A stretch of DNA of 64,000 nucleotides from a bacterium SCSIO 12741 (lineage in GTDB: Bacteria > Bacteroidota > Bacteroidia > Flavobacteriales_G > Salibacteraceae). Location: the NCBI GenBank assembly GCA_024398055.1, contig CP073749.1, forward strand, positions 2,232,594-2,296,593, given 5' to 3'. The first letter of the stretch is position 1. Every line of letters starts with the position of its first letter. This document shows positions 2,953-56,812 of the stretch, in pieces. A program made the translations under genes and the position numbers. The notes beneath the pieces are model-generated. The model saw only the letters and a list, made by a program, of their open reading frames with translations, had not been told where the DNA came from and ran no database searches.

Positions 2953-2990
2953 AAAAAAATCGGTTATGAAAATAAATATTCATAACCGAT
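2953..2990 (-). terminator. Intrinsic terminator after the yqeY gene, abutting the next ATG
   Basis: On the minus strand a 12-bp perfect stem, ATCGGTTATGAA with TTCATAACCGAT, surrounds an 8-nt loop and is followed by a run of seven T. It ends the long division-gene transcript 22 bp after the 3012 stop. The T-run touches the ATG of the START-domain gene without a single spacer base. Confidence 0.85.
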
Positions 2991-3011
2991 TGGGAAAGGA
3001 TAAATAATAGA

Positions 3012-34097: not shown

Positions 34098-34891
34098 GAG
34101 AGTTTTTCGAGCTTAAGCTGAATTTCTTCCCCGAAGAAGAGTCGGGTTATTTCCTGAAAGGCGAGCGTATGATCGGATACGTAGAACTCGTCCTTTGCAG
34201 CATTTTTACCATCGGCGGATAGGTCATGCTCTTCCAGCATTTTTTGAAGGGCAGAAGCCACCATGTGAGATGAATCCAGTACTTCGGTTTTACCTTGGTA
34301 GTAGGTTTTTATTTCATCCACCAATAGCGGGTAATGCGTGCATCCAAGAATCAAGGCTTTAATTCCTTCCAAGTCAGGTTGAGAAAGGTAGTGCTTAATG
34401 GCCTGCTCACTAATTTCGCTTCCGGCAAAACCTTCCTCGATTAATGGGGCCAGCAAAGGCGTCATCAAGGCTTGGCACGAAGCAAAGTCACGCAATTGGT
34501 CTTGATAAACCTTCGACTTAACGGTAGCCTTGGTTCCAATCACTCCTACGGGTTCGCCTGAGAAGTGCTCCCGCACATAATCCACCATAGGTGCAATTAC
34601 ATTGATAATCGGGAGTTGATCTCCATACTTTTCTCGAATGGGATGATAGGCAGAAGCAGAAGCAGAATTACAGGCGATAACAATCACCTTGCACTCCTTT
34701 TGGATAAGGAAGTCGCTTATGGCTAAAGAGTATCGTGTAATGGACTCTGGAGACTTATCACCGTAGGGTAGGTGAAGGGTGTCGCCAAAGTAAATGAGTT
34801 TTTCATTGGGAAGTAAGCTTTTGATGGCTCGGGCAACCGTAAGTCCACCGACACCAGAATCAAATATGCCTATACTTCCCGTTTTACTCAT
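34094..34891 (-). CDS. murI: Glutamate racemase
   Basis: Supplies D-glutamate for peptidoglycan. It has 265 residues from MSKTGSIGIFDSGVGGLT. The two catalytic cysteines are in VIACNSASA and ILGCTHYPLL, and YFGDTLHLPYG matches the substrate-binding loop. The ATG lies 4 nt after the T-run of a terminator-like hairpin (34896-34920), so expression may depend on read-through from the ompH-bamA cluster. As I recall, an ompH-ompH-murI order is common in Bacteroidota. Confidence 0.96.
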   Translation of the reverse strand: MSKTGSIGIFDSGVGGLTVARAIKSLLPNEKLIYFGDTLHLPYGDKSPESITRYSLAISDFLIQKECKVIVIACNSASASAYHPIREKYGDQLPIINVIAPMVDYVREHFSGEPVGVIGTKATVKSKVYQDQLRDFASCQALMTPLLAPLIEEGFAGSEISEQAIKHYLSQPDLEGIKALILGCTHYPLLVDEIKTYYQGKTEVLDSSHMVASALQKMLEEHDLSADGKNAAKDEFYVSDHTLAFQEITRLFFGEEIQLKLEKLS

Positions 34892-34895
34892 GGGC

Positions 34896-34920
34896 AAAAA
34901 AAAAACCGCCAGAGGCGGTT
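34896..34920 (-). terminator. Intrinsic terminator between ompH and murI
   Basis: On the minus strand AACCGCC-TCT-GGCGGTT forms a perfect 7-bp GC-rich stem followed by a run of about ten T. It ends 4 nt before the murI ATG and starts 7 bp after the ompH stop codon. Confidence 0.9.
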
Positions 34921-34927
34921 CTTAATG

Positions 34928-35485
34928 TTATTTAGGAGCAGATGCAGGAGCCGCGGCTGCTGCGGTGATGCCCATTTGTTTTTTCACCAGGGGTAGAATG
35001 TCATCCCCTTCAGGATAGTAAAGAACCGATCCTGTACCCGTATCAAAAATGTAAGTGTATCCGTGCTCTTTCGCAACGGCGGTGATAGCATCCTTAGCCT
35101 TTTTGATAAGAGGCTCCATCAACTCTACTTCTTTTTGCTGAAGAGACTGTTGAGCTTTGCTTTGGAATTCTTGAATTCGCTGCTGCAATTGGATGATCTC
35201 TTCTTCCAATGAAGCACGAACTACTTCGTTCATGGTTCCTTTAGCCGCTTCCGTTTGATAATTGGTGTATTTCTTTTCGTATTCCTGGGTCATAGAAGCC
35301 AATTGAAGCTCCAATTGCTGACCAAATGCTGCCAACTTAGTTTCGGCGGTATCTCTATCTGGCATCACCATCAACAGGTCGTTAGAGTTGATGTGACCGA
35401 ATTTTCCAGCTTTTTGTGCGGAACTGTTAAGAGCCAGTCCAAAAAAAGCTACCAGAATCAGGCTGTGTTTCAAAAATGATTTCAT
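34928..35485 (-). CDS. OmpH/Skp family periplasmic chaperone
   Basis: A 185-residue exported protein. The signal peptide ends near NSSAQ. The mature part begins with KFGHINSNDLLMVMPD, followed by a long Gln/Glu/Lys-rich coiled coil (about residues 55-125) and a closing beta segment YIFDTGTGSVLYYPEGDDI. This is the Skp tentacle-chaperone layout. Skp holds unfolded outer membrane proteins in the periplasm. The C-terminal Ala/Pro-rich tail (AAAAAPASAPK) is an add-on. It is one of two tandem copies downstream of bamA. Confidence 0.92.
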   Translation of the reverse strand: MKSFLKHSLILVAFFGLALNSSAQKAGKFGHINSNDLLMVMPDRDTAETKLAAFGQQLELQLASMTQEYEKKYTNYQTEAAKGTMNEVVRASLEEEIIQLQQRIQEFQSKAQQSLQQKEVELMEPLIKKAKDAITAVAKEHGYTYIFDTGTGSVLYYPEGDDILPLVKKQMGITAAAAAPASAPK

Positions 35486-43640: not shown

Positions 43641-44393
43641 TTATAAGGTTTTCGGTGAGGGGAACCCCTGTTGATTCTGCATGGATTAATGGGGATGTTA
43701 GACAACTGGCAAGGGCCTGCCAAGTACTACGCTGAGCACTTTCAGGTATATATCATCGATGCCAGAAACCATGGCCACTCTCCCCATTCACCGGAGTTTA
43801 CTTACGAACTCATGGCCGATGATTTATTGAATTTTGTGGAAGAACATGACTTGGATTACTTCCATTTGATGGGTCATTCCATGGGTGGGAAAACGGTGAT
43901 GAAATTTGCCCAAAATCATCCGGATTATGTGGACAAACTCATTGTGGCCGACATTGCACCGAGAGCTTATCCTGTTCATCATCAACAAATCTTAGCTGGA
44001 TTGAATGCCTTGGATTTTGAGGTGATTAAGAGCCGTGGCGAGGCGGAAAAAGCCTTGGCCTCTTATGTTCCAGAATTGGGTGTTCGTCAGTTTCTTCTCA
44101 AGAACATGTATTGGAAGGAAAAAGGCAAATTGGCCCTTCGCTTTAACCTCGATGCGATTACCGAGAATATCGAATTGATTGGAGAAGGAATCTTCGACCG
44201 TATCTATGAGGGACCTACCCTTTTCATCCGAGGTGAAAAATCAAAATACGTATCCGAAGAAGATTGGAAGGATATTCAGTTGTCGTTTCCGCAGGCAGAA
44301 TTGAATACGGTTAAAGACGCTGGACACTGGCTACATGCCGAGAAACAAGCGGAATTTATTCAAGAAACTACGGAATTCTTACTTCGGGATTAG
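43630..44393 (+). CDS. Alpha/beta-fold hydrolase (frameshifted near the start as sequenced)
   Basis: The gene starts at ATG 43630, overlapping pdxJ by 11 bp, and reads MTLNYKVFGEGNP before a stop. From about 43671 another frame continues with LLILHGLMGMLDNWQG to the end. Adding one C to the C4 run at 43665-43668 joins them into a normal 254-residue hydrolase (GEGNPLLILHG). The nucleophile elbow GHSMGG and the acid and His region (TLFIRGEKSKYV and DAGHWLHAEKQ) are intact. The closest named relatives are YbfF-like esterases. An alternative start at the TTG at 43671 would lack the first strand and is less likely. Confidence 0.82.
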
Positions 44394-45619
44394 TCGAAGT
44401 CTGTTGTCAATTTGAAGCGCAACACCCGTCCGTTACCGGCATCAGCAACGTAGAGTATTTTGTTGAGGTAAGCTACTCCCGTAGGATTGTTAAACTGTCT
44501 CAAGTCTTGTCCTCTTCCGCCAAAGGATGCCAGGATTTGCTTAGATTCAGCTGAGAATGGAGGTGGATTTACCCCTTCATATCCCTTACTGGTAAATTGA
44601 TACAAAGAATCCTTTTCAGAATCAACTACGAAAATGTAATTGGTTCCATCACCAGCATAAGTTACCCCGCGAGGAGCTGAAAACTTATTTGCCTCATACA
44701 GGAAGCCGTCGGCCTTGCTCGTGTCTTTGGAGTCTAATTCATCCAGAAAGTATACACCGCCATTTTCACTTTCCTCATACTTGATGTATTGCACCTTTAG
44801 AGAAAGGTCTGGATCAACTGAGGTAAAAAGAAAATCACGGCTATCGGTAATGGCAGCATTCTGAGGCGGCTGAGCCAAGGTGCTGATACCCACAGGACGG
44901 CTAAAGTAGTCAAGTACGGATCCAGATGGGGTTTGTACAATCAAAGGAGAAATAAACTTGTCTTTTTCACCGGTCAAAAGATCTGGGCCTACCAATAGAA
45001 CGGCATCGTCTGGTCCGCCCAATTGTCCTGTGTTTTGATTAGGGCCATTGCGTGTTATGTAGTAGTTCGAATTCCCCAATACTCCAATTCCTTCAAAAGT
45101 GATCTCCTGATCTTCAACGATGGCAGTAGGAATGTTTTTGTAGTAAGGATGAATAATGACCGGGGTAATTTGAGCGTGCTGTAATCCATGCGAAATACCG
45201 CTGCTCTGGTGGATGCGGTAGATGCAGGCCAAGGTCAATGTTTGAGGCTGACCATTCACTGTTACAAGTGTGTCATAAGTTCCGGAGGCCAATAAATCCA
45301 ATGTACGATCCTGGGCAATGGCTTTTAATCCTGGAATTTTAACCCGGTGCAATTCTCTTCCGGATAAGTCCATGGAAACGATCTCTTCACTTCCACCATC
45401 CAAAATGTACATCAATTGGTCAAACCCTGCCAATACTTGAGTAGGTCGGGCAAAGTTGTCCAATACCGGTTGAATCGGTACGTAGGCCACTTCACGTCCA
45501 GTATATACTGGCTTGTCGATGAACTCCAGGTCGGTTTTTTCACCGAACACTCCTTTACAGCCTGTGGCTACCACAGCGAGCAAAAGAATCGATCCTAAGA
45601 TGAGTTTAATTCTGTCCAT
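44390..45619 (-). CDS. NHL/beta-propeller lipoprotein
   Basis: The last gene of a seven-gene secretion locus. The 409-residue lipoprotein has the signal MDRIKLILGSILLLAVVATGC with Cys21. The mature part looks like a beta-propeller: blades are suggested by DQLMYILDGGSEEIVSMDLSG, PRGVTYAGDGTNYIFVVD and the terminal NHL-like repeat FNNPTGVAYLNKILYVADAGNGRVLRF. It begins within the last 14 bp of the PorV/PorQ-like gene. Its stop shares bases with the stop of the converging hydrolase. The function is unknown. A surface-exposed scaffold or binding role is plausible. Confidence 0.8.
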   Translation of the reverse strand: MDRIKLILGSILLLAVVATGCKGVFGEKTDLEFIDKPVYTGREVAYVPIQPVLDNFARPTQVLAGFDQLMYILDGGSEEIVSMDLSGRELHRVKIPGLKAIAQDRTLDLLASGTYDTLVTVNGQPQTLTLACIYRIHQSSGISHGLQHAQITPVIIHPYYKNIPTAIVEDQEITFEGIGVLGNSNYYITRNGPNQNTGQLGGPDDAVLLVGPDLLTGEKDKFISPLIVQTPSGSVLDYFSRPVGISTLAQPPQNAAITDSRDFLFTSVDPDLSLKVQYIKYEESENGGVYFLDELDSKDTSKADGFLYEANKFSAPRGVTYAGDGTNYIFVVDSEKDSLYQFTSKGYEGVNPPPFSAESKQILASFGGRGQDLRQFNNPTGVAYLNKILYVADAGNGRVLRFKLTTDFD

Positions 45620-46646
45620 TGCTTTCTACTTTGCGTTCCTCAGGTTTGTAAAGTCTTAGATTTAAGCCGATGTGGTGTTGTACTCCAAAGAAGGTAGTAG
45701 GCACAAAGGCATATTGAATATGCAAGGGGTGGTGACCAATCCGGGTTTTAAATCCAGCTCCAAAAGTGGGGTAGGTGTAAGACTTACGTCCCAGTACATA
45801 TCCCGCTCTAACGAATACCAACTTGCGGTAACCGTATTCCAATCCCATGCTAATGTTTTCGCTGTTATCATTCGGGTGATTCAACTGAACAGCGGCCAAT
45901 AATTCGTGCTTATCCGTTTGAATAGGGTACATGGAAATTCCCAACTTAAATACGGTTGGCACAGGGTATCTTTCCGGAGTTGGGGTAGAGTTCTGGTTAA
46001 ATTTCAATTCCTGAAAATCGCCACTTAATGCAGTACTTCCACCAAAGTTTGAAACCACTACGGCAAAGCTGAGGTCTCTTACATCAGTTTGGTACAAAAA
46101 TCCCAGATCAGCCGTGAAGGTGTTGTTCTGGTATTGTGCGATACTCTCGTGGATATAATTCAGTTTTAATCCAAAGGAGAATTGATCACTCAATTGCTTG
46201 GAGATGCCCAATCCAATGGCGGTGTTCACCACGTAGAAATATTCTCCCGTACCGTGAGGCTGAAATTCAGTTCTCACTTCTTGACGACCAGAAGAAAGGT
46301 TGTTTACCGTTAGGGCAAAGGCAGCGGTTCTTTTCTCCCAAGGTTGAACCACGCTCAAGAAGGTCTGATTGATTCCATTTCCAATCAAAAGATTCGACGT
46401 GCCTATCGAAGTTGAACTCACCGAAGTAATGGCTGCTGGATTCGTAAAAGACGTAAATCCATCACCCCTTAAGGTAACGTTCGAGCTAGCCATACCCAGA
46501 GATCTTGGGCTGGCATCATTTTTCAAATAACTTAATGCAGAAGAACCGGTACGCTGTCCACCAAGGTTAGGCAAAATCTGAGCCTGAGCTGCTAAACCTG
46601 TAAGGAATAGAATTCCGATCGCTGCGATATGTTTCCAAGTATTCAC
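45606..46646 (-). CDS. PorV/PorQ-family outer membrane protein
   Basis: A 346-residue exported barrel. The signal peptide ends at AAQAQ (about 22). The mature start has SALSYLKNDASPRSLGMASSNVTLRGDGFTSFTNPA, the landmark of the PorV/PorQ (UPF0164, FadL-like) group, followed by many amphipathic strands and the C-terminal YAFVPTTFFGVQHHIGLNLRL. PorV shuttles T9SS cargo to the attachment complex, and PorQ relatives belong to the same system. Its position among T9SS-cargo genes suggests a dedicated acceptor, which is inference. It lies 3 bp after the TonB receptor gene. Confidence 0.83.
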   Translation of the reverse strand: MNTWKHIAAIGILFLTGLAAQAQILPNLGGQRTGSSALSYLKNDASPRSLGMASSNVTLRGDGFTSFTNPAAITSVSSTSIGTSNLLIGNGINQTFLSVVQPWEKRTAAFALTVNNLSSGRQEVRTEFQPHGTGEYFYVVNTAIGLGISKQLSDQFSFGLKLNYIHESIAQYQNNTFTADLGFLYQTDVRDLSFAVVVSNFGGSTALSGDFQELKFNQNSTPTPERYPVPTVFKLGISMYPIQTDKHELLAAVQLNHPNDNSENISMGLEYGYRKLVFVRAGYVLGRKSYTYPTFGAGFKTRIGHHPLHIQYAFVPTTFFGVQHHIGLNLRLYKPEERKVESNGQN

Positions 46647-46649
46647 GTA

Positions 46650-49520
46650 TCAGAATTTAAAAGCTAAACCATAAAATATTTGAGTAGGTGCCTGCCAACG
46701 AGCGGGGTTGTCAGGTGGTAGACCGGTGGCCTGCGGATCCGGATATTTAGGATCTCTCCAATCTTCAGGAACGTCATCACCTTCCCGGTATCCGTCGCCG
46801 GTTACCGGATTCACGATATAAGCGTTCTTGTTGTTGAACAGGTTGCGAACCTCAAAGCTCAGCGACAATGCCTGCTGACGCTTGGTGTTCTTAAGCACAA
46901 AATCTTTGGTGATTTTTAAATCGGTCCAGAACCAAGCCTTCGCGATTTCGGAGTTTGGACGATCACTCTGGTATTGGTAGATAGGACGGCCGAAATCGTT
47001 GTATCCTGCAAGTTCCACAGGTGTGTAGCGGAAGCCTGACTTATAGTTAGTGGCCAGGTAAATTCGGATGTGATCAAAGGCTTTAGAGCCAAATAGACGC
47101 ATGGTGGTGTCTGTGTTCATAATTACACCCAATTTCAAATCCCATGGACGGTCCCAGGTAAGAGGCTGCTCTTTGGTGTTGTCCACAAATCCCTGCTGGC
47201 GAATTTGCAATTCACTTTCACGAGCCGAGTTTGATTTACCACGAGCCGACTGGAAGGATCCGTTAAAGAACAACTTGAAGTACTTGGCAATTCTTTGGGT
47301 GACTCCCAATTCCACCCCTACGATTCGGGCGTAGTCCTGGTTGTAGTAAATTTTACGACTAACGAGTTTACCGGTTTGATCTTCCAGAATGGCGTATCCT
47401 GATACAATGTAGTCGTACTTGTCGTTGTTGTAGGCTGCAACGGTTACCCCAAGGTCTTTTGTGATTTGGGATTTGATACCAATCTCATAACTCACTGTCG
47501 ACTCCGGTTTGATAATGGGGTTACCAATGGTTGCCAATGGAGAGCGATCGAGGTAATCAGGATCAAGACCAGCGTAAATAAAACGAGGGTGAGGCATCTG
47601 CATCGAGTGACCGTAGTTGAAGTAAAGAACGTTGTTCTCAGTAACCGGGAAGGATACATTCAACTTAGGTAACAATCGATTCTGCCAGCGTTTGCCAAAG
47701 ATTTTAAAGGTTTCGTCCTGGTAGGTCGTTCTGGACTCATCCTGAAGCAATACTTCATCGTTTTCTACAGCTGCGTCCAGTTCTTTACCATAAGCCCAGT
47801 AGTTGTAGCGTAGACCCAAGGTGGCAGAAATCCCTTTGTAGGTGATTTTGTCCTGTAGCCAGAATCCACCTTCGGTAGGACGGGCAAACCAGATTTCGGA
47901 AGACGATCCAACACTGATAGAAGGGGTAGAAAGCGAATCGTTAATCTGAATCGGAGCACCTACCCATGGACGGAATACATCAGCCCATTGGTATTCTTTT
48001 TCCTTGTGTTCCCATCCAAACATAAACTCGTGGTTCTTGTTGTTGGGGAAGTAACTTGCTCTAATTTTTCCTGTGTATTCCTGAACGTAGTGATCGTGCC
48101 AGCGCTCGGCAATACCACCGTTGTTTACCAATCCCGGGCCAGGCAATACATACACCTGATCAGAACCTGGGTTGTACAATTCAATTGGATCGGTCACAAT
48201 CGATTCCGGATCGTAAATCTGATCTACGGTTGCAGAGCGGAATGGACGTCCATTGGCATCAGCCCTTAAGTTGGTGAATAAGCGGCCTAAGGCTACCTTG
48301 ATATTCCAATGATTGTTGATGTAATGTTGGAAGTTCATTACGGTCAAATTGGAACGGTGGGTATAGGTGTTACCTGCATCTGGATCCAAGGCAAAGTCAT
48401 ATTGCAAACCGGGACGAACCACGGCGTCAAATCCAACAATTTGAAGGGAACGGGTACTTTGATTAATCGCAATACTGTGCTGATTGGTCAAAGTAAGTTT
48501 GGTCCCTGGTTTGAACTCGTAAGAAAGCTTTATCGTATTCGCAAACTTGTTGTTCTGTCTTGGTGCCCAAACGGAGTCATTGTCTGGGAAGAGTGAGCTA
48601 TGCAACTGATTCGCTTGAATGCGGTAGTAGTCGTCCGACATAAAGGCATTGGCACTCACAAAAAAGCGAAGTTTCTTTTTCGTCCAGGGAATCGATCCTC
48701 CAATGGCGAGGTCAATGATATCCGTATTCCAACTGGGTCCGGCATTCACTCGGCTTTGTAGCAAGGTAGTTTCGCCGGCACTCATCGACCAATCCCCAAG
48801 ATTGTCACGTTGCCAGCTACCAGCAATTTGAAATTGCTCGCCGCCTTCACGGATCTGGGTGGAAACCACTCCTGAAGCGCCACTACCGTATTCGGCTCCG
48901 GCACCACCCGTAATCAGCGATACATCGCTAATTGAACTACTTTGTACGCTTACTCCAAATCCCGTTCCGGAAAGGGGGTCCTGGGCACTAATTCCGTCAA
49001 CCAAATACTGAGTTTCGTAATTTCGACCACCCCGAATGTTAATTCCATCAGGAGTCTTGTTTACCCCTGCTTGCATGGTCACAATATCCGTTACATCCCT
49101 AACGGCCATATTCTGGATATCTTCTTCGGTGATTTTCACCTCAGAGGCAGCATCCTCCAGGTTAATGATGTTCTTTTCACCAACGATCACAACCTCATCC
49201 ATTACCGTGCTTCTCAGGTTGAGATCCACGTTGAGCGTTTTTGTTTCGCCAGCTTTAATGGTGATTCCGTTGTACTGCTTATCGGAATAACCGATGAAGG
49301 ACACTTTCACGGAGTAATCACCCGGTTTAATGTCTTTGATCTCGTAATTCCCGTTGATGTCGCAGCTTACTCCTTTGTAGGTACCTACCAATACAACGGT
49401 GGCGCCGATCAAGGTTTCTTTACTATCAGCATCCCTAATCACTCCTTTCAGGGTACCGGTTTGGGCCAGCAATGTTTGACCCAAAAGAAGGGTCAGTACC
49501 AGGGTCATTAACTGTTTCAT
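46650..49520 (-). CDS. TonB-dependent receptor with carboxypeptidase-like N-terminal domain
   Basis: A 956-residue outer membrane receptor. A signal peptide (to about 20) is followed by a CarboxypepD_reg-like domain (GTLKGVIRDADSKETLIGATVVL and YSVKVSFIGYSDKQY), the TonB-plug region (MDEVVIVGEKNIINLEDA, INIRGGRNYETQYLVDGIS, ITGGAGAEYGSGASGVV) and a long barrel ending in FYGLAFKF. No SusD partner is present, unlike glycan-uptake loci. Instead it is flanked by a lipoprotein and a PorV-like barrel. The substrate is unknown. Neighbouring nuclease and OB-fold proteins hint at nucleic-acid-derived ligands, as speculation. Confidence 0.88.
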   Translation of the reverse strand: MKQLMTLVLTLLLGQTLLAQTGTLKGVIRDADSKETLIGATVVLVGTYKGVSCDINGNYEIKDIKPGDYSVKVSFIGYSDKQYNGITIKAGETKTLNVDLNLRSTVMDEVVIVGEKNIINLEDAASEVKITEEDIQNMAVRDVTDIVTMQAGVNKTPDGINIRGGRNYETQYLVDGISAQDPLSGTGFGVSVQSSSISDVSLITGGAGAEYGSGASGVVSTQIREGGEQFQIAGSWQRDNLGDWSMSAGETTLLQSRVNAGPSWNTDIIDLAIGGSIPWTKKKLRFFVSANAFMSDDYYRIQANQLHSSLFPDNDSVWAPRQNNKFANTIKLSYEFKPGTKLTLTNQHSIAINQSTRSLQIVGFDAVVRPGLQYDFALDPDAGNTYTHRSNLTVMNFQHYINNHWNIKVALGRLFTNLRADANGRPFRSATVDQIYDPESIVTDPIELYNPGSDQVYVLPGPGLVNNGGIAERWHDHYVQEYTGKIRASYFPNNKNHEFMFGWEHKEKEYQWADVFRPWVGAPIQINDSLSTPSISVGSSSEIWFARPTEGGFWLQDKITYKGISATLGLRYNYWAYGKELDAAVENDEVLLQDESRTTYQDETFKIFGKRWQNRLLPKLNVSFPVTENNVLYFNYGHSMQMPHPRFIYAGLDPDYLDRSPLATIGNPIIKPESTVSYEIGIKSQITKDLGVTVAAYNNDKYDYIVSGYAILEDQTGKLVSRKIYYNQDYARIVGVELGVTQRIAKYFKLFFNGSFQSARGKSNSARESELQIRQQGFVDNTKEQPLTWDRPWDLKLGVIMNTDTTMRLFGSKAFDHIRIYLATNYKSGFRYTPVELAGYNDFGRPIYQYQSDRPNSEIAKAWFWTDLKITKDFVLKNTKRQQALSLSFEVRNLFNNKNAYIVNPVTGDGYREGDDVPEDWRDPKYPDPQATGLPPDNPARWQAPTQIFYGLAFKF

Positions 49521-49521
49521 A

Positions 49522-50958
49522 TCACTTAAATTCCTGGTTTAAGACTTTGTCGAAAAGGGCATCCGTATTTGCGGGTATTCCATTGGCATCATACAATCCA
49601 AGTCCAATGTGGACCTGGTAGGTATTTCCGGAAAGTTGACGTCGGGCTCCAATGTGATCCGGGCCATTCCATCCTGGTGGTTCGTCCAGATCTGCTGTCA
49701 TAATGCTTTCTGCATCCGAAGAAGGAACAAAAGGCGAAACAGCAGGGGAGAAACTTGTCGGCTCTAAATCAGGATAACCCTGAGTTCCGGTAATGGTAGT
49801 GCCACCGGCTTTTAGGAATACGGATCCATTAAATCGGGTAGAGCGATCCATGGGGAATACGCCAAATACAATCGAGTTACTATCCAAATCAGCAGGAAAA
49901 TACCCAATGGTAAAGATCTTACCGCCGGAGTTGTAGTAGTCCTGAATGGATCGAGCCGAAGATTCGAAGATCAAGTTCTCTTTTTTGGTGTTTTCGTTGA
50001 AGTAAGGCTTCCGGTCAGAGAACATACATACCTTCTCATACTGCTTGATCAATAGGGAGAAAGTAGGATCCCAAAAAGTAGGTTGCCATTTTCCATTATC
50101 AATGGCGTAGTCAATGTAGTCGAAAGTCGGGTATACATTTCCGATATGTTGGCGGTAAAAGGCGTTCTCACTAATGTCTGCCCCGATCACCAGCAAGTCA
50201 GAAGTTTTGTTTTTGAAGTACAATCCGGAAATAGTATCCGTATTACTTTCTGAATTGGCAATGTCTATGGCTTGGATGTAGATGTTGTTGGTGTCATTCA
50301 GTTTTAGGCCGGTCATTGGGGTACTCTCTGCTTCTGAGGAAGTGAACCATACAGTAGCATTCATGGTGCCTGTTCCAGAAACATTTTCAGGAACCAGGGT
50401 TAGGTTGTCGATGTTTTTGTCCACCTCAAACCAATCGCCTTCATTGATCCGGATTCGAACATGCTTGAGGTTTTCGAATCCATCAGGATCAGAAGCTTCC
50501 CAGAAAAGGGTTGCGATCAGGTAGGCCGTGTCGGCAGTGGAAAAACTGTGGTTGAAAGTTACTTCGGGAGGGCTGTTTTTAATAGGTACTCTCACATAAG
50601 CAGGAGAGGGGTCTTTGATGCCATCGTTGTCAATGGATCGAACATAAAAATCGATATCGGTGGTGTCTGAGCCTTCTTCAATGTCAAATACGAAGGTGCT
50701 GTCAAATTCAGTGGTGTAGAACCAGTTTTGACCATCTTGTGAGATTTCAAAGCCTTCGATGTAACCATCGGAGTCGGTTCCCATCCAGGAGAGGCGAACG
50801 GTTGACTTTAACCGGTTTTCTCCAACCTGATTAATTACATGGGGGGTGACTACGGTCTGAGGTGCCTCATTGGCATGTCTGTCTCCCTTTTTACAGGTAA
50901 TGAGCAATCCAGCAGACAAGAGGATTAACAGCCCGGAAAGAAACGATGTCAATTTCAT
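49522..50958 (-). CDS. FN3-like repeat lipoprotein with C-terminal Rossmann-like region
   Basis: A 478-residue lipoprotein with the signal MKLTSFLSGLLILLSAGLLITC (Cys22). Two fibronectin/Ig-like modules are visible: VRLSWMGTDSDGYIEGFEIS with IDFYVRSIDNDG, then PPEVTFNHS with ATLFWEASDPDGFENLKHVRIR. The second half (from about residue 255) has alternating strands and helices (DLLVIGADISENAFYRQH, SIQDYYNSGGKIFTIGYFP) reminiscent of a glutamine-amidotransferase-like Rossmann fold, but I cannot name it. It lies 1 bp upstream of the TonB receptor gene. Its ATG is 4 nt after a strong terminator-like hairpin. Confidence 0.8.
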   Translation of the reverse strand: MKLTSFLSGLLILLSAGLLITCKKGDRHANEAPQTVVTPHVINQVGENRLKSTVRLSWMGTDSDGYIEGFEISQDGQNWFYTTEFDSTFVFDIEEGSDTTDIDFYVRSIDNDGIKDPSPAYVRVPIKNSPPEVTFNHSFSTADTAYLIATLFWEASDPDGFENLKHVRIRINEGDWFEVDKNIDNLTLVPENVSGTGTMNATVWFTSSEAESTPMTGLKLNDTNNIYIQAIDIANSESNTDTISGLYFKNKTSDLLVIGADISENAFYRQHIGNVYPTFDYIDYAIDNGKWQPTFWDPTFSLLIKQYEKVCMFSDRKPYFNENTKKENLIFESSARSIQDYYNSGGKIFTIGYFPADLDSNSIVFGVFPMDRSTRFNGSVFLKAGGTTITGTQGYPDLEPTSFSPAVSPFVPSSDAESIMTADLDEPPGWNGPDHIGARRQLSGNTYQVHIGLGLYDANGIPANTDALFDKVLNQEFK

Positions 50959-50962
50959 GGGT

Positions 50963-51006
50963 AAAAAAGATTATCCAGGCCCGACTTGATGTCGAACCTG
51001 GATAAT
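50963..51006 (-). terminator. Strong terminator-like hairpin inside the T9SS operon
   Basis: On the minus strand ATTATCCAGGTTCGAC pairs with GTCGGGCCTGGATAAT (16 bp including two G-U pairs) around a 5-nt loop, followed by CTTTTTT. It lies 11 bp after the 51018 stop and its T-run ends 4 nt before the ATG at 50958. It would lower transcription of the lipoprotein, TonB receptor and PorV-like genes relative to the three cargo genes. Confidence 0.85.
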
Positions 51007-51017
51007 TTCAAAAGAGT

Positions 51018-53171
51018 TTATTGAACCACCAATTTTCTATTTTCCAATAGAGCTCCTTGTGGAGTAGTGATTGTGATCTGGTAGATACCAGCATCAAATG
51101 TGTCAAGATTTACGCGGTTTTCGTTCAATGCAGTGTAGCGAACGAATACCGTTTTTCCGCTCAAGTCGCGGATGTAAATGTGAATTACTTCTTCAGAAGA
51201 CAAGTTGTTGATGTTAACCATGCTTCCAGCAGGGTTAGGGTAGATCTGGAAGTTAGGGTTCTCATAGATATGCTGAACTACTGAATTAGTAGTGTCTTGA
51301 GTCGTATCTGTAGAGTGGTTAATGCCCACAAAATCATCATTGTTTCTTGGAAGCAACTTCATGTTACCAAAGCTGTAAGAAGCAATACCGATCAAGGTGT
51401 CCATGTGCATAGTGTCGCTTACCAATACTTTGTCAGTTGGGTAAGGATCTTTAACACGAGTACTTGCGTTTACATAAGAAACCCAAATGGAGCTAACGCC
51501 TTCACGTCCGGCCAAAATACGGGCACCAGATGCTGGATTCAATTCGTCAGTACCTACGCGGTATTCTGCAAAGTTGTTTCCTCCGCCTGCATCAGCGTTG
51601 GTGTCTACAACGTGTACTTTCTTATCACCTGTTCCATTAACCAAAGCGATCAAGACACCTTCATACTTTTCGTTGCGTGCAAAGTTGTATGAGGTCAAAG
51701 AATCTGGATCCAATGGAAGTGGGTTCACTGTTCCGGTACCTTGTTTGCTACCTGTAGTAAAGGAGATTTGAGTCAAACCGAAAGCTTCTTGCACGTTACC
51801 AGTAACTTCGATTTTGTCTCCTCTTTCAAAAGTTTGACCCGCATTGGTGATTTCAACACCGCTCCATCCACCAAGTGCGTTTTCGTCCTGGATGTGGATT
51901 TTTACCAAGTCACCATCCTTACCCGTTGCAGTAACAACACCGGTAACGGTTACTTCTTGGTTTAGGTAAGGAGAGTTTCCGTCAGGGAATGGAGTAAACT
52001 GAACATCAAAAATGCTCAATCCGTTGTCTCTTACTCGGTAGGTGTAAGTTCCTTGAGTAGGATCAGAACCTGGCAATTGAGTTACGTTAGAGCTATCATC
52101 TTTAGCTCTTAGGTAGTAGCGGATAAAAGTTCCGTCAGCTTGAGCTGGGATAGTTCCTTTGTAAGTAAATCCTGACTGAAGAGTCATGGCTACTTTGGTA
52201 AAGTTCATGTTCATTGGATCTGTACCCGTTGCCCAGTATAGATCAGTTTCAACCAAGCTACCATCCAAGTCAACGATGTCAGCAGTAATGTCTACAGCCT
52301 GAGAGCTGGTAGGAACAGCAGGAGTACGATTGATGTTAGAAATACGTGGTGCAGAAGGACCGTAGTTGTAGTGAGACTGCTTGTAAGGGTGAATCTCATA
52401 TCCACGGTTGTTTTCACCAGGACAGTTGTTCTTACTGTGGATGATGATACCGCTAATGGAGTTGAATTTGTCACCTACTGATGGAGGGGCAAACGTTCCA
52501 GGGTTTCCTGAAGGGTGGTTTGTGTAGGTAGGTAGCTTTTGAGCAAAGAAGTGGTCACCTACGTTGATTAGGTCGCCGTTTTTGTCTTTTACTACAAAGC
52601 TTACACGGTTACCGCTAAATGGGTTTACCGATACAACCTCAAGGTCTGTAAGGGTAACTAAAGAACTTTCCCACTGCTCACCAGTAGTCAAGTTGTTGTT
52701 TTGCTGATTGTCGTTGAAAGTTCCAACAGAAAGAGTTGTGTCTTCAACAACGTTGTTACGGCTCAAAATTTTGATCGCACTGTTGGTCAAAAGCGGCTCA
52801 AACTGAGTCTCACCTTGATACTGGCTCAAGTGACCAACAGCAATAATTTCATCTCCTTCTTTCAAAGAGCGAATGCTAACATTGTAAACGGCGTTTGGGT
52901 CACCTTGACGAAAACGCAAACCTCCAAATGGAGAAGGCTTTAAGGATTGACTGATTTGAATGTTGTGACTTGAAGACCCGTATTCAATTCCGTCAACCAA
53001 ACAGAATCCTCGAACGTATACCGTGTCGCCACTGTATCTTGATTCGTCGTCGCAGTTTCCTAGTTCGGCTTGAGTTTTAAATTGAATGGAGTCAATACTG
53101 AGTGTGTCATATTGTGCATTTGCTGCCAGGCAGAACCCAGAAACAAAGAGAATTAGTAGCCAATTTTTCAT
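51018..53171 (-). CDS. Secreted OB-fold protein with T9SS sorting domain
   Basis: A 717-residue secreted protein with a signal peptide ending in AANAQ. OB-fold-like modules are suggested by GDTVYVRGFCLVDG with HNIQISQSL and EGDEIIAVGHLSQYQGETQFEPLL near the N-terminus, and by EVTVTGVVTATGKDGDLVKIHIQDE with RGDKIEVTGNVQEAFGLTQI in the middle. The layout resembles the OB-fold regions of YhcR-type nucleases. A middle segment (PAVPTSSQAVDITADIVDLDG) is FN3-like. The final 75 residues (FQIYPNPAGSMVNINNLS to GALLENRKLVVQ) are a type A T9SS C-terminal sorting domain. No nuclease active site is visible. Confidence 0.82.
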   Translation of the reverse strand: MKNWLLILFVSGFCLAANAQYDTLSIDSIQFKTQAELGNCDDESRYSGDTVYVRGFCLVDGIEYGSSSHNIQISQSLKPSPFGGLRFRQGDPNAVYNVSIRSLKEGDEIIAVGHLSQYQGETQFEPLLTNSAIKILSRNNVVEDTTLSVGTFNDNQQNNNLTTGEQWESSLVTLTDLEVVSVNPFSGNRVSFVVKDKNGDLINVGDHFFAQKLPTYTNHPSGNPGTFAPPSVGDKFNSISGIIIHSKNNCPGENNRGYEIHPYKQSHYNYGPSAPRISNINRTPAVPTSSQAVDITADIVDLDGSLVETDLYWATGTDPMNMNFTKVAMTLQSGFTYKGTIPAQADGTFIRYYLRAKDDSSNVTQLPGSDPTQGTYTYRVRDNGLSIFDVQFTPFPDGNSPYLNQEVTVTGVVTATGKDGDLVKIHIQDENALGGWSGVEITNAGQTFERGDKIEVTGNVQEAFGLTQISFTTGSKQGTGTVNPLPLDPDSLTSYNFARNEKYEGVLIALVNGTGDKKVHVVDTNADAGGGNNFAEYRVGTDELNPASGARILAGREGVSSIWVSYVNASTRVKDPYPTDKVLVSDTMHMDTLIGIASYSFGNMKLLPRNNDDFVGINHSTDTTQDTTNSVVQHIYENPNFQIYPNPAGSMVNINNLSSEEVIHIYIRDLSGKTVFVRYTALNENRVNLDTFDAGIYQITITTPQGALLENRKLVVQ

Positions 53172-53185
53172 AACACTGATTTTAC

Positions 53186-55297
53186 TTATTTAATAATGGT
53201 GAATTTTCCTTTGTAAACTTTATTGGTTTCAAGATCCTTTACCGAGAACAGGTAAAGACCCCGAGCGATGTTTTGTCCTTCTGAGGAGATGAGATCCCAG
53301 CCGTGTTCTCCACCCGAAAATTCGGTGGTTTCCACATCGGAGAACTGGGTAAACCACTCCGTATCACTTCCGTCGTAATTCTGATCGTGATCAATTTCGT
53401 CAATCAAGTCACCTGCCATGTTGAAGATGCGAATCACACAACGTTCAGGCAAATTGGCAAACATGAGCTTCTTGGTCGTTTGTCTTTGGCTAAAACCTTC
53501 CCATCCTGCTTCCAGGTAGTAAGGGTTCGGGTACACGAAGGGACCATTTTCTTCCAAGTCTTTGTTGGGAGGGGTTCCCATGAATACTCGCTTACTATTG
53601 GCCAATGGGCTTGATTCCAACGATTCCAATTTGGCTTCTTCATCTCCCCGGTCAAAAGCAGAGACGGAAGCGATGTATTGCCAACCGTTGAGCAAACCGG
53701 TGATGGTGTATTTGTAGAAATATTGATTGGTGTCTCCTTCAAATGTTTTTGGCTCGGCCAATTTGATGTCATCAAAACCAGTCTCATAAAATAGCTTGTC
53801 TCCGATCAAATCGTAAACCGCAATCTCTTTCATCGATTCGATGGGGTTGATGGTTTTCTCTACATCAAATCCCAACTTGGACAGGTAAATACGGTATCCG
53901 GCAAAATCTTTTTCCCGAGAAATAGGGTCAATCGATGACTCAGCATTGTCTGACCAATAGATTTCCATTTGATTGTCTCCAGGAACAAAACGAGTAGCTG
54001 GAATATTTGGAGGAGCAGGAAGGATGTAACGATCCAGTTTTCCGTTACCATTCAGGTCTTCTCCCGGATCCAGAATTCCGTTTCCGTTTTTGTCTTCTCC
54101 GTAGTAAGCCGTTTGGGCCCAAATAGCGTTGCTTACCAACTTCTGCTGTTGAAAGGCATTGTTTTCGGAATTGGGCTTACCGTCTTCATTTTTCTTAGCA
54201 CATAGAATAGCGAAAGAAATGCGTACCTGATCACCGGGCTGAACATCGCGGAATGGGCCAATAGATACCAAATCCGAGCGGTTTCCAGGGTCATTGATTT
54301 TGTCGGCCAGGTAAACGCCTTGGTGCTTTGGTGGAATTGTGTCGTACTCTTCTTTCCAGTCGTTTCTCCAATTCAAACCTTGGGTGAGCTTTTTGTATTT
54401 CTGATCATCCGTTGCAGGTGAGAAAAGTAGAGGCTCAGACGTGTTGCTCCAGGTCCAGGCGTTGTAGTTAACCTTAATGGCACTGTCTACGCTTGGGTGG
54501 TGATAACCATTCTTGTCTTCAGCGCCCAAAAATTTGTGGCCGAAGTAGCTTTCAGTAAATCCCGGATCACCGGCTGCGTCATAGCAGTATCCGATATGAA
54601 GAGAATCGTTGTAGCCGTTTCCGCCTTTGTTGTAGAACGCCGTACCGCCACTTCCTGCTGGAGTAACGTTTACATTTCTAATCACGGCATTGGCAAACAT
54701 TCCAATGTAAACCGAGTCCAATACATCTTGACCATTGTTGGTGAAGGTGTAATCCATGATCACGAAAAAGTTACTGAAAGCGTAGTTCCAGTTATACGAT
54801 TCCAGGTGTACATCAAAGCCAAGCGGCTGATTGTGATCCGTAATCTTAATTTGAGTCCCAGGAACTACCACATTCTTATCGGTAAAGTCTGCCAGAAAAT
54901 CCTGGTGAGAGATGGCCTCTGCTGAGTATTTTTTGCTGTTGAATAGGGACGAACGTTCGGTAATTACTGCTGTTTGCTCAGCTGTCATTTCATAGCCGCC
55001 TGCTCCCGTGGAGTATCCTTTGGAGTTGTCATAAGCAGCTGTGCTCACGGCAAAACTTCCTTTAATGTTGGCACCTACCCAAATTCCACCTTCAAAAAGG
55101 TGCTCAATTCCAGAATTTTTGGGGTATTCGCAGGATGGTGCACCAGACAATTGAAAACTTCCTTTAAAGGAGTTTCCGATTACCCCGACGTTATTCATCG
55201 TGAGGCCAACATCACTTGCTGTGGTAAATACTTCAACCTGAGCATTAAGGCTAACGCCAGATATTAAGAAAATCAGGGAGAGCAATCGACTTGTCAT
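53186..55297 (-). CDS. Large secreted protein with Ca-binding-like repeats and C-terminal FlgD/T9SS-type domain
   Basis: A 703-residue exported protein. I chose the ATG at 55297, which opens the signal MTSRLLSLIFLISGVSLNAQ and overlaps the upstream stop (ATGA). The N-terminal two thirds have no domain I can name, although GSFQLSGAPSCEYPKNSGIEHLF at the start recurs in Bacteroidota surface proteins. At mid-length, DKNGNGILDPGEDLNGNGKLDR contains two Asp/Asn-rich loops like EF-hand or dockerin calcium sites. An FN3-like region follows. The C-terminus (FVYPNPYYLEAGWEGF to YKGKFTIIK) is a FlgD-Ig/T9SS-like sorting module. Confidence 0.8.
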   Translation of the reverse strand: MTSRLLSLIFLISGVSLNAQVEVFTTASDVGLTMNNVGVIGNSFKGSFQLSGAPSCEYPKNSGIEHLFEGGIWVGANIKGSFAVSTAAYDNSKGYSTGAGGYEMTAEQTAVITERSSLFNSKKYSAEAISHQDFLADFTDKNVVVPGTQIKITDHNQPLGFDVHLESYNWNYAFSNFFVIMDYTFTNNGQDVLDSVYIGMFANAVIRNVNVTPAGSGGTAFYNKGGNGYNDSLHIGYCYDAAGDPGFTESYFGHKFLGAEDKNGYHHPSVDSAIKVNYNAWTWSNTSEPLLFSPATDDQKYKKLTQGLNWRNDWKEEYDTIPPKHQGVYLADKINDPGNRSDLVSIGPFRDVQPGDQVRISFAILCAKKNEDGKPNSENNAFQQQKLVSNAIWAQTAYYGEDKNGNGILDPGEDLNGNGKLDRYILPAPPNIPATRFVPGDNQMEIYWSDNAESSIDPISREKDFAGYRIYLSKLGFDVEKTINPIESMKEIAVYDLIGDKLFYETGFDDIKLAEPKTFEGDTNQYFYKYTITGLLNGWQYIASVSAFDRGDEEAKLESLESSPLANSKRVFMGTPPNKDLEENGPFVYPNPYYLEAGWEGFSQRQTTKKLMFANLPERCVIRIFNMAGDLIDEIDHDQNYDGSDTEWFTQFSDVETTEFSGGEHGWDLISSEGQNIARGLYLFSVKDLETNKVYKGKFTIIK

Positions 55298-56640
55298 GGC
55301 TGTAAAAACACTTTTTGAGTTCCGATCCATTGATGGCCTGAATACATACTAATCAGATAAATTCCAGCTTGCTCAAGAGAACTGGGCAAAAGTAATTCAA
55401 TATCCTCGGTTGAAATGTTAAAAGTGGAAGAATATAAAGACCTGCCAGTCAGGTCAGAAATCTGTATTTGCCAGGATTCTCCTTGAGGGCCATTCGTAGA
55501 AATTCTTAATCGGTTGTCATTCCAGCGTTTTACGGAAAATTGACGCCCCGTTTTACCGGCCAAATCATTCACGGATGAAGGAATGCTTGTACTCGCTTTT
55601 AACTTTAAAATAACAGGCAGGTGATCTGACATGCCGTACAAGGCATCTGCAATTTGGGTGGAAACTACAGTATTGGCTGGAGAATTAATGCTTTGGTTGT
55701 ATCTCTTGCCGTCCTGACCGAGGGCATCGTAGCTACTGTCCACATATTGCATCTGATCGTGCCCCTGCATTAGGGATTTGCTTAGCAAAATTTGATCGAA
55801 CCGATCGTCCATTCCGCCTGAGGAAAAACAGGCATTGCTATTCGAAGAATGAGTGGACTGAGTGTGGATATCGGCAAAACTGCTGTTGTTGTTCCATTTC
55901 CCAGGTCGGTTAATGGGGTCTTGAAAGCTGTAATCAGGCTGGACGTAATTCGTGAGGTTTTGATAGCCCGTTTCGGTGCTGTTGTAAACATTAAGATCAC
56001 CGGCAAAAATCATGTTGCCATCTCGGTAAGTGTTCGCCAGGTAGTCCATAACGCCTTGGGTAGTCCAGGCGCGTTCATTTCGGTCATTGGAAGAATTGCC
56101 CGCTTTCAAATGAGATACGATGTATTTGAACCGAACGGTATCGGCTCCGTGATCCAGGTATTCGCCTTTAAAATAAAGCTGGTGCATATCAATGGATCGA
56201 ACATAACGGTTGCCAGCGCCATCCTGGGTCATTTTATCTACCCACGACCAGCCCACTTTTTCGGTGTTGTAGAAGAGCATGTTGCACAAGTTCTGACTTC
56301 CACCTGTCTGCAATTCGGTTCTGGCGTACTTTGTTTCGCCATCAACATTTAGGCATCGCTCCAGGATGCGTTGGCCATAAACGGTGTTGCATCCCATTTC
56401 ATTTACGGTGAAAATATCGGGCTTAACATGGGCCAGGATTTTCTTCAGATGGCCGTCTTTGGTGTTAATGTTGTTATTGGAAGTGTTGCATTGATTGCTT
56501 GTAGCACCGTAGTACAACAAGTTATAATGCATAATTGTTAGGGTGTCGCTAAGATCGATAGTGGTCTGGCTAAATGATAATAAAGGCCAGAAAACCAACC
56601 AAATAGAGAAAAAAAATCGCCTCATATGAGCCTGCTTCAT
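55294..56640 (-). CDS. Secreted endonuclease/exonuclease/phosphatase (EEP) family protein with T9SS sorting domain
   Basis: A 448-residue exported hydrolase. I chose the ATG at 56640. Another at 56625 also precedes the signal (FFFSIWLVFWPLLSFSQ). The EEP catalytic motifs are in order: MHYNLLYYG (Asn), VNEMGCN (metal-binding Glu), SHLKAGN, AGDLNVYNS (Asp and Asn) and MSDHLPVIL (Asp-His). This places it in the DNase I/sphingomyelinase superfamily, as a nuclease or phosphodiesterase. The exact substrate is not fixed by sequence. The last 75 residues (FSVKRWNDNRLRIST to GTQKVFLQP) are a T9SS-type C-terminal domain. It is the first gene of the seven-gene locus. Confidence 0.88.
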   Translation of the reverse strand: MKQAHMRRFFFSIWLVFWPLLSFSQTTIDLSDTLTIMHYNLLYYGATSNQCNTSNNNINTKDGHLKKILAHVKPDIFTVNEMGCNTVYGQRILERCLNVDGETKYARTELQTGGSQNLCNMLFYNTEKVGWSWVDKMTQDGAGNRYVRSIDMHQLYFKGEYLDHGADTVRFKYIVSHLKAGNSSNDRNERAWTTQGVMDYLANTYRDGNMIFAGDLNVYNSTETGYQNLTNYVQPDYSFQDPINRPGKWNNNSSFADIHTQSTHSSNSNACFSSGGMDDRFDQILLSKSLMQGHDQMQYVDSSYDALGQDGKRYNQSINSPANTVVSTQIADALYGMSDHLPVILKLKASTSIPSSVNDLAGKTGRQFSVKRWNDNRLRISTNGPQGESWQIQISDLTGRSLYSSTFNISTEDIELLLPSSLEQAGIYLISMYSGHQWIGTQKVFLQP

Positions 56641-56691: not shown

Positions 56692-56812
56692 GGGGCTCAA
56701 AATTAAGGCTTTATTAAATATCCTCTAAAAACGATTATTAACAAATCTTTGGGTTCGGAGTATCTCCGCAGTTTGGCAGCAAGCCTTATATTCGTGCTCG
56801 TTTTTTTATGTT

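Follow-up and report, generated by a model that had tools for sequence, protein, structure and literature searches.

A terminator-like hairpin kept between a cargo gene and a lipoprotein gene (positions 50963-51006) probably acts as a partial intrinsic terminator within an operon, lowering transcription of a receptor module relative to that of the cargo encoded before it. In the mechanism that we propose, one promoter at the head of the operon would transcribe three genes for secreted-type proteins. Part of the polymerases would then stop at the hairpin and the rest would continue into the genes for a lipoprotein, a TonB receptor, a PorV-family barrel and an NHL protein, and the receptor module would be transcribed less than the cargo. 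The features concerned, in the order of transcription, lie in a window that is the whole 64-kb stretch of DNA analysed:

56698..56705, minus strand: match to the Bacteroidota -7 box TAnnTTTG, TAATTTTG, at the operon head
55294..56640, minus strand: probable cargo, first gene; sorting-domain and endonuclease/exonuclease/phosphatase matches, both below cut-offs
53186..55330, minus strand: secreted-type protein, 714 aa; no family match; C-terminal end T9SS-tail-like, by eye only
51018..53171, minus strand: T9SS type A cargo of 717 aa; its C-terminal sorting domain passes the cut-offs of Pfam and NCBIfam
51007..51017, minus strand: 11-nt spacer from the cargo stop codon (TAA 51020-51018) to the hairpin
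50970..51006, minus strand: terminator-like hairpin; 5' arm 51006-50991, loop ATCAA 50990-50986, 3' arm 50985-50970
50963..50969, minus strand: CTTTTTT tract 3' of the stem; C50969, six T 50968-50963, then ACCC 50962-50959 and ATG 50958
49522..50958, minus strand: 478-aa lipoprotein; lipobox Cys 22 identified by eye, invariant in a 12-row alignment
46650..49520, minus strand: TonB-dependent receptor with a carboxypeptidase-regulatory-like N-terminal domain
45606..46646, minus strand: PorV/PorQ family barrel; family cut-off passed, PorV, PorQ and PorV2 equivalog cut-offs failed
44390..45619, minus strand: lipoprotein-like protein with one NHL repeat

The listed reading frame of the first cargo gene opens at TTG 56700 and overlaps the TAATTTTG box, and ATG 56640 is the likelier start. 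A sequence-only reading of this DNA had given the locus a T9SS label, which holds within limits: the 717-aa protein adjoining the hairpin passes the sorting-domain cut-off, and the other two upstream proteins miss it. The 717-aa protein also has an ExeM/NucH-like stretch that falls far short of its cut-off. The lipoprotein matched no Pfam or NCBIfam family at the thresholds used. Its structure model from 12 sequences (pLDDT 82.8) suggests domains of fibronectin-III type and a C-terminal part of alpha/beta type; the best Foldseek matches, all with low TM-scores, were tandems of fibronectin-III domains. At the far end of the run, the NHL gene overlaps a convergent hydrolase gene (43671-44393, plus strand) by 4 nt (44390-44393).

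The same reading had placed a 16-bp stem followed by CTTTTTT between the third cargo gene and the lipoprotein gene, where it was found exactly, and the T-run does end 4 nt before ATG 50958. Seven of the 16 pairs are G-C, and the loop has five bases. The hairpin RNA has a dG of -25.1 kcal/mol (z -6.6), a stability that none of 200 dinucleotide shuffles equalled (mean -9.4, sd 2.4). Among 339 gene ends in 464 kb of the same genome, located with a crude gene caller, five hairpins, including that at the junction, reached -24.4 or better. The gap that holds the hairpin (59 nt) is the sole one longer than 14 nt across the seven-gene run 56700-44390. When the hairpin is read on the plus strand, TTCAAAAG comes next, with no T-run. 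A 131-base stretch around the hairpin has one match in its own genome, which is itself; the hairpin is therefore not a dispersed (REP-like) repeat.

Homologues of the lipoprotein were found in 41 of the 100 genomes searched, the window's own included. The loci compared came from two sources, namely 30 of those 41 genomes and the best 80 of 87 relatives from named genomes, which are mostly environmental assemblies with titles such as Flavobacteriales, Salibacteraceae, Vicingaceae, Schleiferiaceae, Owenweeksia and Cytophagales, among others. Removal of duplicates left 87 distinct loci, and three without a readable cargo-lipoprotein junction were dropped to leave 84. Most of the loci are metagenome assemblies, many of them short or with flanks of only 1.5 kb, and simple rules were used to call the gene starts and the background genes. 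Two loci, L063 and L064, are nearly copies of each other, and kinship among the rows inflates the apparent significance of p-values. Gene order was identical in 87/87 loci for the genes found (all seven in 35, the middle four in 64), and the hairpin is adjoined by co-directional genes of one conserved cluster.

With a hairpin defined by a dG of -12 or below and at least four T in the next eight bases, the cargo-lipoprotein junction carries one in 66 of the 84 loci (shuffles 6/168), and the other five junctions of the cluster carry one in 0/37, 0/65, 4/82, 1/53 and 7/51. Relaxing the limit to dG <= -9 gave 70/84 at the junction and 28/168 in shuffles. In the flanking DNA of these contigs, 11/101 tandem gaps of 20-80 nt held a hairpin (13/101 with a slightly wider stretch), and in 464 kb of the window's genome 10/59 did, the junction itself included. 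When hairpins with dG <= -14 were picked without regard to T, the junction had one in 69 of 84 loci, and T made up 0.63 of the next 8 nt, compared with 0.00-0.42 after such hairpins at other junctions. What is found at the junction is thus the combination expected of an intrinsic terminator, a stable hairpin with an immediate U-rich tract. The letters of the hairpin differ between genera; its structure and place are kept. Cultured relatives that have it include Phaeocystidibacter luteus LMG 25704 (L074) and Acidiluteibacter ferrifornacis S-15 (L046).

We labelled the loci, partly by eye, as having the hairpin before the lipoprotein start (47), within the coding sequence (18) or not at all (19). 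L110, with a long irregular stem (-12.2), was scored as having none, and L035, L065, L066, L078 and L100, whose starts are uncertain, were scored as having the hairpin before the start; that of L097 sits in a low-complexity repeat. By this scoring, 14 of the 19 hairpin-less loci have nothing at dG <= -9 and five have weak or irregular hairpins only; they include two loci with all seven genes and several with six, and 10 of the 11 rows of one clade are without a hairpin. The function of the hairpin would be dispensable, since it is absent from these 19.

The hairpin begins 3-12 nt past the cargo stop in 42 of the 47 loci that have it before the start, and stop-to-hairpin distances at the junction are shorter than at 22 flank terminators (p 9e-4, a value that is too small because the rows are related); no difference from these terminators was found in stem length (p 0.17) or dG (p 0.33). 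A general rule by which internal terminators hug stop codons failed (eight of internal type, median 22 nt, vs 38 of end type, median 21 nt; p 0.58). Elsewhere, a hairpin shortly before a start (dG <= -12, at least five T, start within 40 nt) was seen at 8 of 827 gene ends. For the 66 hairpin loci, the chosen lipoprotein start lies 2-33 nt 3' of the hairpin in 41, 99 nt in one, and before or inside it in 24, among which we took 18 to be in-frame, five to start later or at an uncertain site, and L110 to lack a proper hairpin. The chosen ATG of L065 is inside the hairpin, 3' of a GAGGAGGA stretch in the 5' arm.

In the 18 in-frame loci, 17 of them from one clade, the hairpin lies within the signal-peptide codons of the lipoprotein. 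In thirteen related in-frame loci, about four codons separate the end of the shared hairpin core from the lipobox cysteine, so that no later start could provide the signal peptide. A tree built by a quick method from the lipoprotein frame, without its N-terminal 60 residues, places the 17 in a clade of 18 rows that includes one hairpin-less row, and the three hairpin states need 8 changes on it. In the 17 loci of this clade (e.g. L044, L055, L063, L075, L076, L082 and L090), homologues of the first cargo gene, the PorV-family barrel and the NHL protein were undetected on the same strand (tblastn, E <= 1e-4), some of the loci being short.

Random synonymous recoding of the first codons in the 18 in-frame loci (200 recodings each) reached the observed stability in 4 of 3600 cases, two of 200 each in L040 and L082 and 0/200 in each of the sixteen others. 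An earlier run over 42 loci, with 60 recodings per locus, had yielded 1/1080 as stable in the in-frame loci, in L063; in six of the 18 (L040, L044, L057, L061, L082 and L090), the most stable recoding missed the observed value by no more than about 1.6 kcal/mol. Among its 24 uncounted loci, L011, L038, L100 and L105 beat all 60 recodings, and L095 and L096 were reached by one and two, respectively; L011, L038 and L105 were left uncounted for long irregular stems and only four T, and L100 for its uncertain start. In 12 distinct rows of one clade, anchored at the cysteine, 181 of 216 pair cells pair, compared with 70-114 when one arm is slid, and changes occur on both sides; the structure tested was derived from the same 12 rows, which favours the true over the slid register. 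Within the sequences compared, the recodings show the in-frame hairpins to be under selection at the synonymous level. It is hardly credible, then, that the hairpin is a leftover or chance palindrome of no function: its absence from the 19 loci fits such a view, but its structure is kept in unlike sequences, far above shuffles and flank gaps, and both the pairing test and the recodings speak against it.

If the hairpin terminates transcription, the genes beyond it must be reached in some way. The Bacteroidota -7 box is given as TAnnTTTG in the portion of PMC9723704 cited here. Of 36 loci, 27 have it ahead of the first gene (5.5 after shuffling); where that gene was not found, 20 of 24 loci have it ahead of the second (3.5 after shuffling). 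At the operon head, only 4/36 loci also carry a -33 element by the pattern used, and a scan for E. coli-type promoters is uninformative for this phylum. TAnnTTTG was not enriched at the cargo-lipoprotein junction (9/84 vs 9.1 in shuffles) or within the 600 nt before it (22/80 vs 24.3), and TAnnTTGY at the junction was not above shuffles; by motif and geometry, a junction promoter was judged unlikely. At two other junctions TAnnTTTG is depleted (1/65 vs 6.9 and 4/81 vs 10.3 in shuffles), and since these counts fall below shuffles a promoter in a minority of the junction loci is possible.

The evidence points to transcription from a single head promoter, with polymerases reading through the hairpin. 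The sequence-only reading had argued that no room for a promoter is left 3' of the hairpin and that the four distal genes need either read-through or a promoter in the hairpin or the upstream gene. Our results bear this out, and the comparison favours read-through among these options, given the lack of box enrichment at or before the junction and the 18 loci with the hairpin in the lipoprotein coding sequence. The suggestion in that reading that the hairpin could set the ratio of cargo to machinery is consistent with these results. Read-through would be obligatory in those loci, because the hairpin is inside the coding sequence, and it is likely in the others. Two separate transcription units, with the hairpin closing that of the cargo and a promoter within the cargo gene or the hairpin opening that of the machinery, are very improbable. 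Blocks of unlike function are indeed separated by the hairpin, nine loci do have the box at the junction, and 21% of start sites are internal in Bacteroides thetaiotaomicron, as stated in the cited part of PMC7366714; however, these boxes do not exceed shuffles, a transcript from an upstream start would still cross the hairpin, and the in-frame loci have it within coding sequence. A hairpin 3' of the seventh gene is rare (9/48 at dG <= -9, 7/48 at <= -12), which counts against this single operon, although it may extend beyond the seventh gene, the next gene being co-directional in 28 of these 48 loci.

Because a ribosome at the cargo stop codon would already cover the beginning of the hairpin, or because the hairpin falls among the earliest codons of the gene that follows, the read-through share probably varies with the lag between polymerase and ribosome. 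In E. coli, the ribosome represses the terminator tR2 almost completely when this lies a few bp past a stop codon, and a terminator placed within the first 100 bp of a coding region is active, according to the excerpts cited of PMC4824070. These precedents suggest that ribosome position matters at the junction hairpin. By analogy, little termination would be expected so near a stop codon as long as translation keeps up, and the repression result could mean that the junction hairpin seldom terminates. Termination in the cell, its efficiency, the ratio of cargo to receptor and the ribosome effect are what we infer from sequence. A doubtful but possible extension is a translation-gated checkpoint, in which the polymerase would reach the receptor module only if cargo translation keeps pace; the hairpin would lie in the footprint of the finishing ribosome or in the signal-peptide codons of the next gene, and selection would have kept it despite turnover of its letters in many lineages, even in coding sequence.

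A hairpin within reach of the terminating ribosome could also be a regulated attenuator that a ligand, a protein or the translation state toggles between termination and read-through, and strong signs of attenuation by leader peptides are reported upstream of amino-acid operons in F. psychrophilum (PMC9723704, in the portion cited). We consider this improbable, as the hairpin letters are unconserved between genera, little space is left outside the cargo gene for an aptamer or antiterminator, and a search of Rfam with the 64-kb window and eight loci returned 0 matches to described RNA families. A riboswitch or known cis-regulatory RNA was rejected on the same absence of Rfam matches and of conserved letters, and a leader-peptide attenuator with a short leader ORF because the preceding frame is the 717-aa cargo gene, with its stop 11 nt away.

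Unequal transcript amounts could arise without termination if the hairpin were an mRNA-stability element, shielding the cargo message at its 3' end once the transcript has been cleaved or is decaying from downstream. The position between cargo and machinery, the stability of the stem and the unconserved letters fit this reading too, and processing of the cip-cel operon in Ruminiclostridium is controlled by stem-loops (PMC10311766, as far as the excerpt cited describes it). Yet a T-rich tract, which stability alone does not need, is kept directly 3' of the 3' arm, and ribosomes making the lipoprotein would cross the hairpin in the in-frame loci. We therefore judge a stability element unlikely.

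Partial termination, the reading that we prefer, has relatives in other systems, as far as the cited parts of these papers describe them. In Flavobacterium psychrophilum, predicted intrinsic terminators that stop transcription in part are given a class of their own (PMC9723704). The closest likeness is to the ABC importers of cellulolytic Clostridia, where stem-loops 3' of the binding-protein genes of Ruminiclostridium gave 20.7-96.1% termination in reporters (PMC9045158): in both cases a stem-loop lies between a gene for an extracellular protein and genes for membrane transport, the distal genes need read-through, and control of stoichiometry is proposed. The importers belong to another phylum and carry another cargo, and termination was measured there, whereas here it is inferred from sequence; here, moreover, the T tract adjoins the start codon, or else signal-peptide codons contain the hairpin. 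As in pyrBI-type and amino-acid leader attenuators (PMC4824070), a terminator lies in or near a translated stretch and the outcome can hinge on ribosome position, but the translated gene here encodes a full cargo protein or the lipoprotein instead of a short leader peptide. The cellulosomal cip-cel stem-loops (PMC10311766) likewise lie within an operon and set transcript ratios; they are described as acting on mRNA processing, unlike the junction hairpin, with its kept T tract. Among the titles and abstract openings listed from the open-licence literature, none described a terminator in this operon or a conserved one inside signal-peptide codons.

A similar layout occurs elsewhere in the window. 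A second, weaker hairpin with a T-run (34890-34927, minus strand) follows ompH (34928-35485) and extends as far as a gene for a racemase (Pfam Asp_Glu_race), which we take to be MurI; the listed start of the racemase is TTG 34897, and the ATG chosen by our script is 6 nt further on. In a side look at 30 family loci (L132-L161; raw counts), a hairpin of dG <= -9 was near this junction in 29 and began 1-12 nt past the ompH stop in 21. A further hairpin with a T-run (2953-3011, minus strand; dG -16.2) separates yqeY from a START-like gene, whose ATG is 5 nt away; no consistent internal hairpin was found at the yqeY junction in family loci. The resemblance at the ompH-racemase junction hints that the layout may be more widespread, although a first general test was negative.

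In summary, a terminator-like hairpin is kept by structure and place, not by its letters, inside an operon of surface proteins, and one clade has it written into signal-peptide codons. Because it is kept within the operon, operon calls that split at predicted terminators would miscut it. The balance between cargo and receptor in the surface operons of Bacteroidia becomes testable at one defined site.
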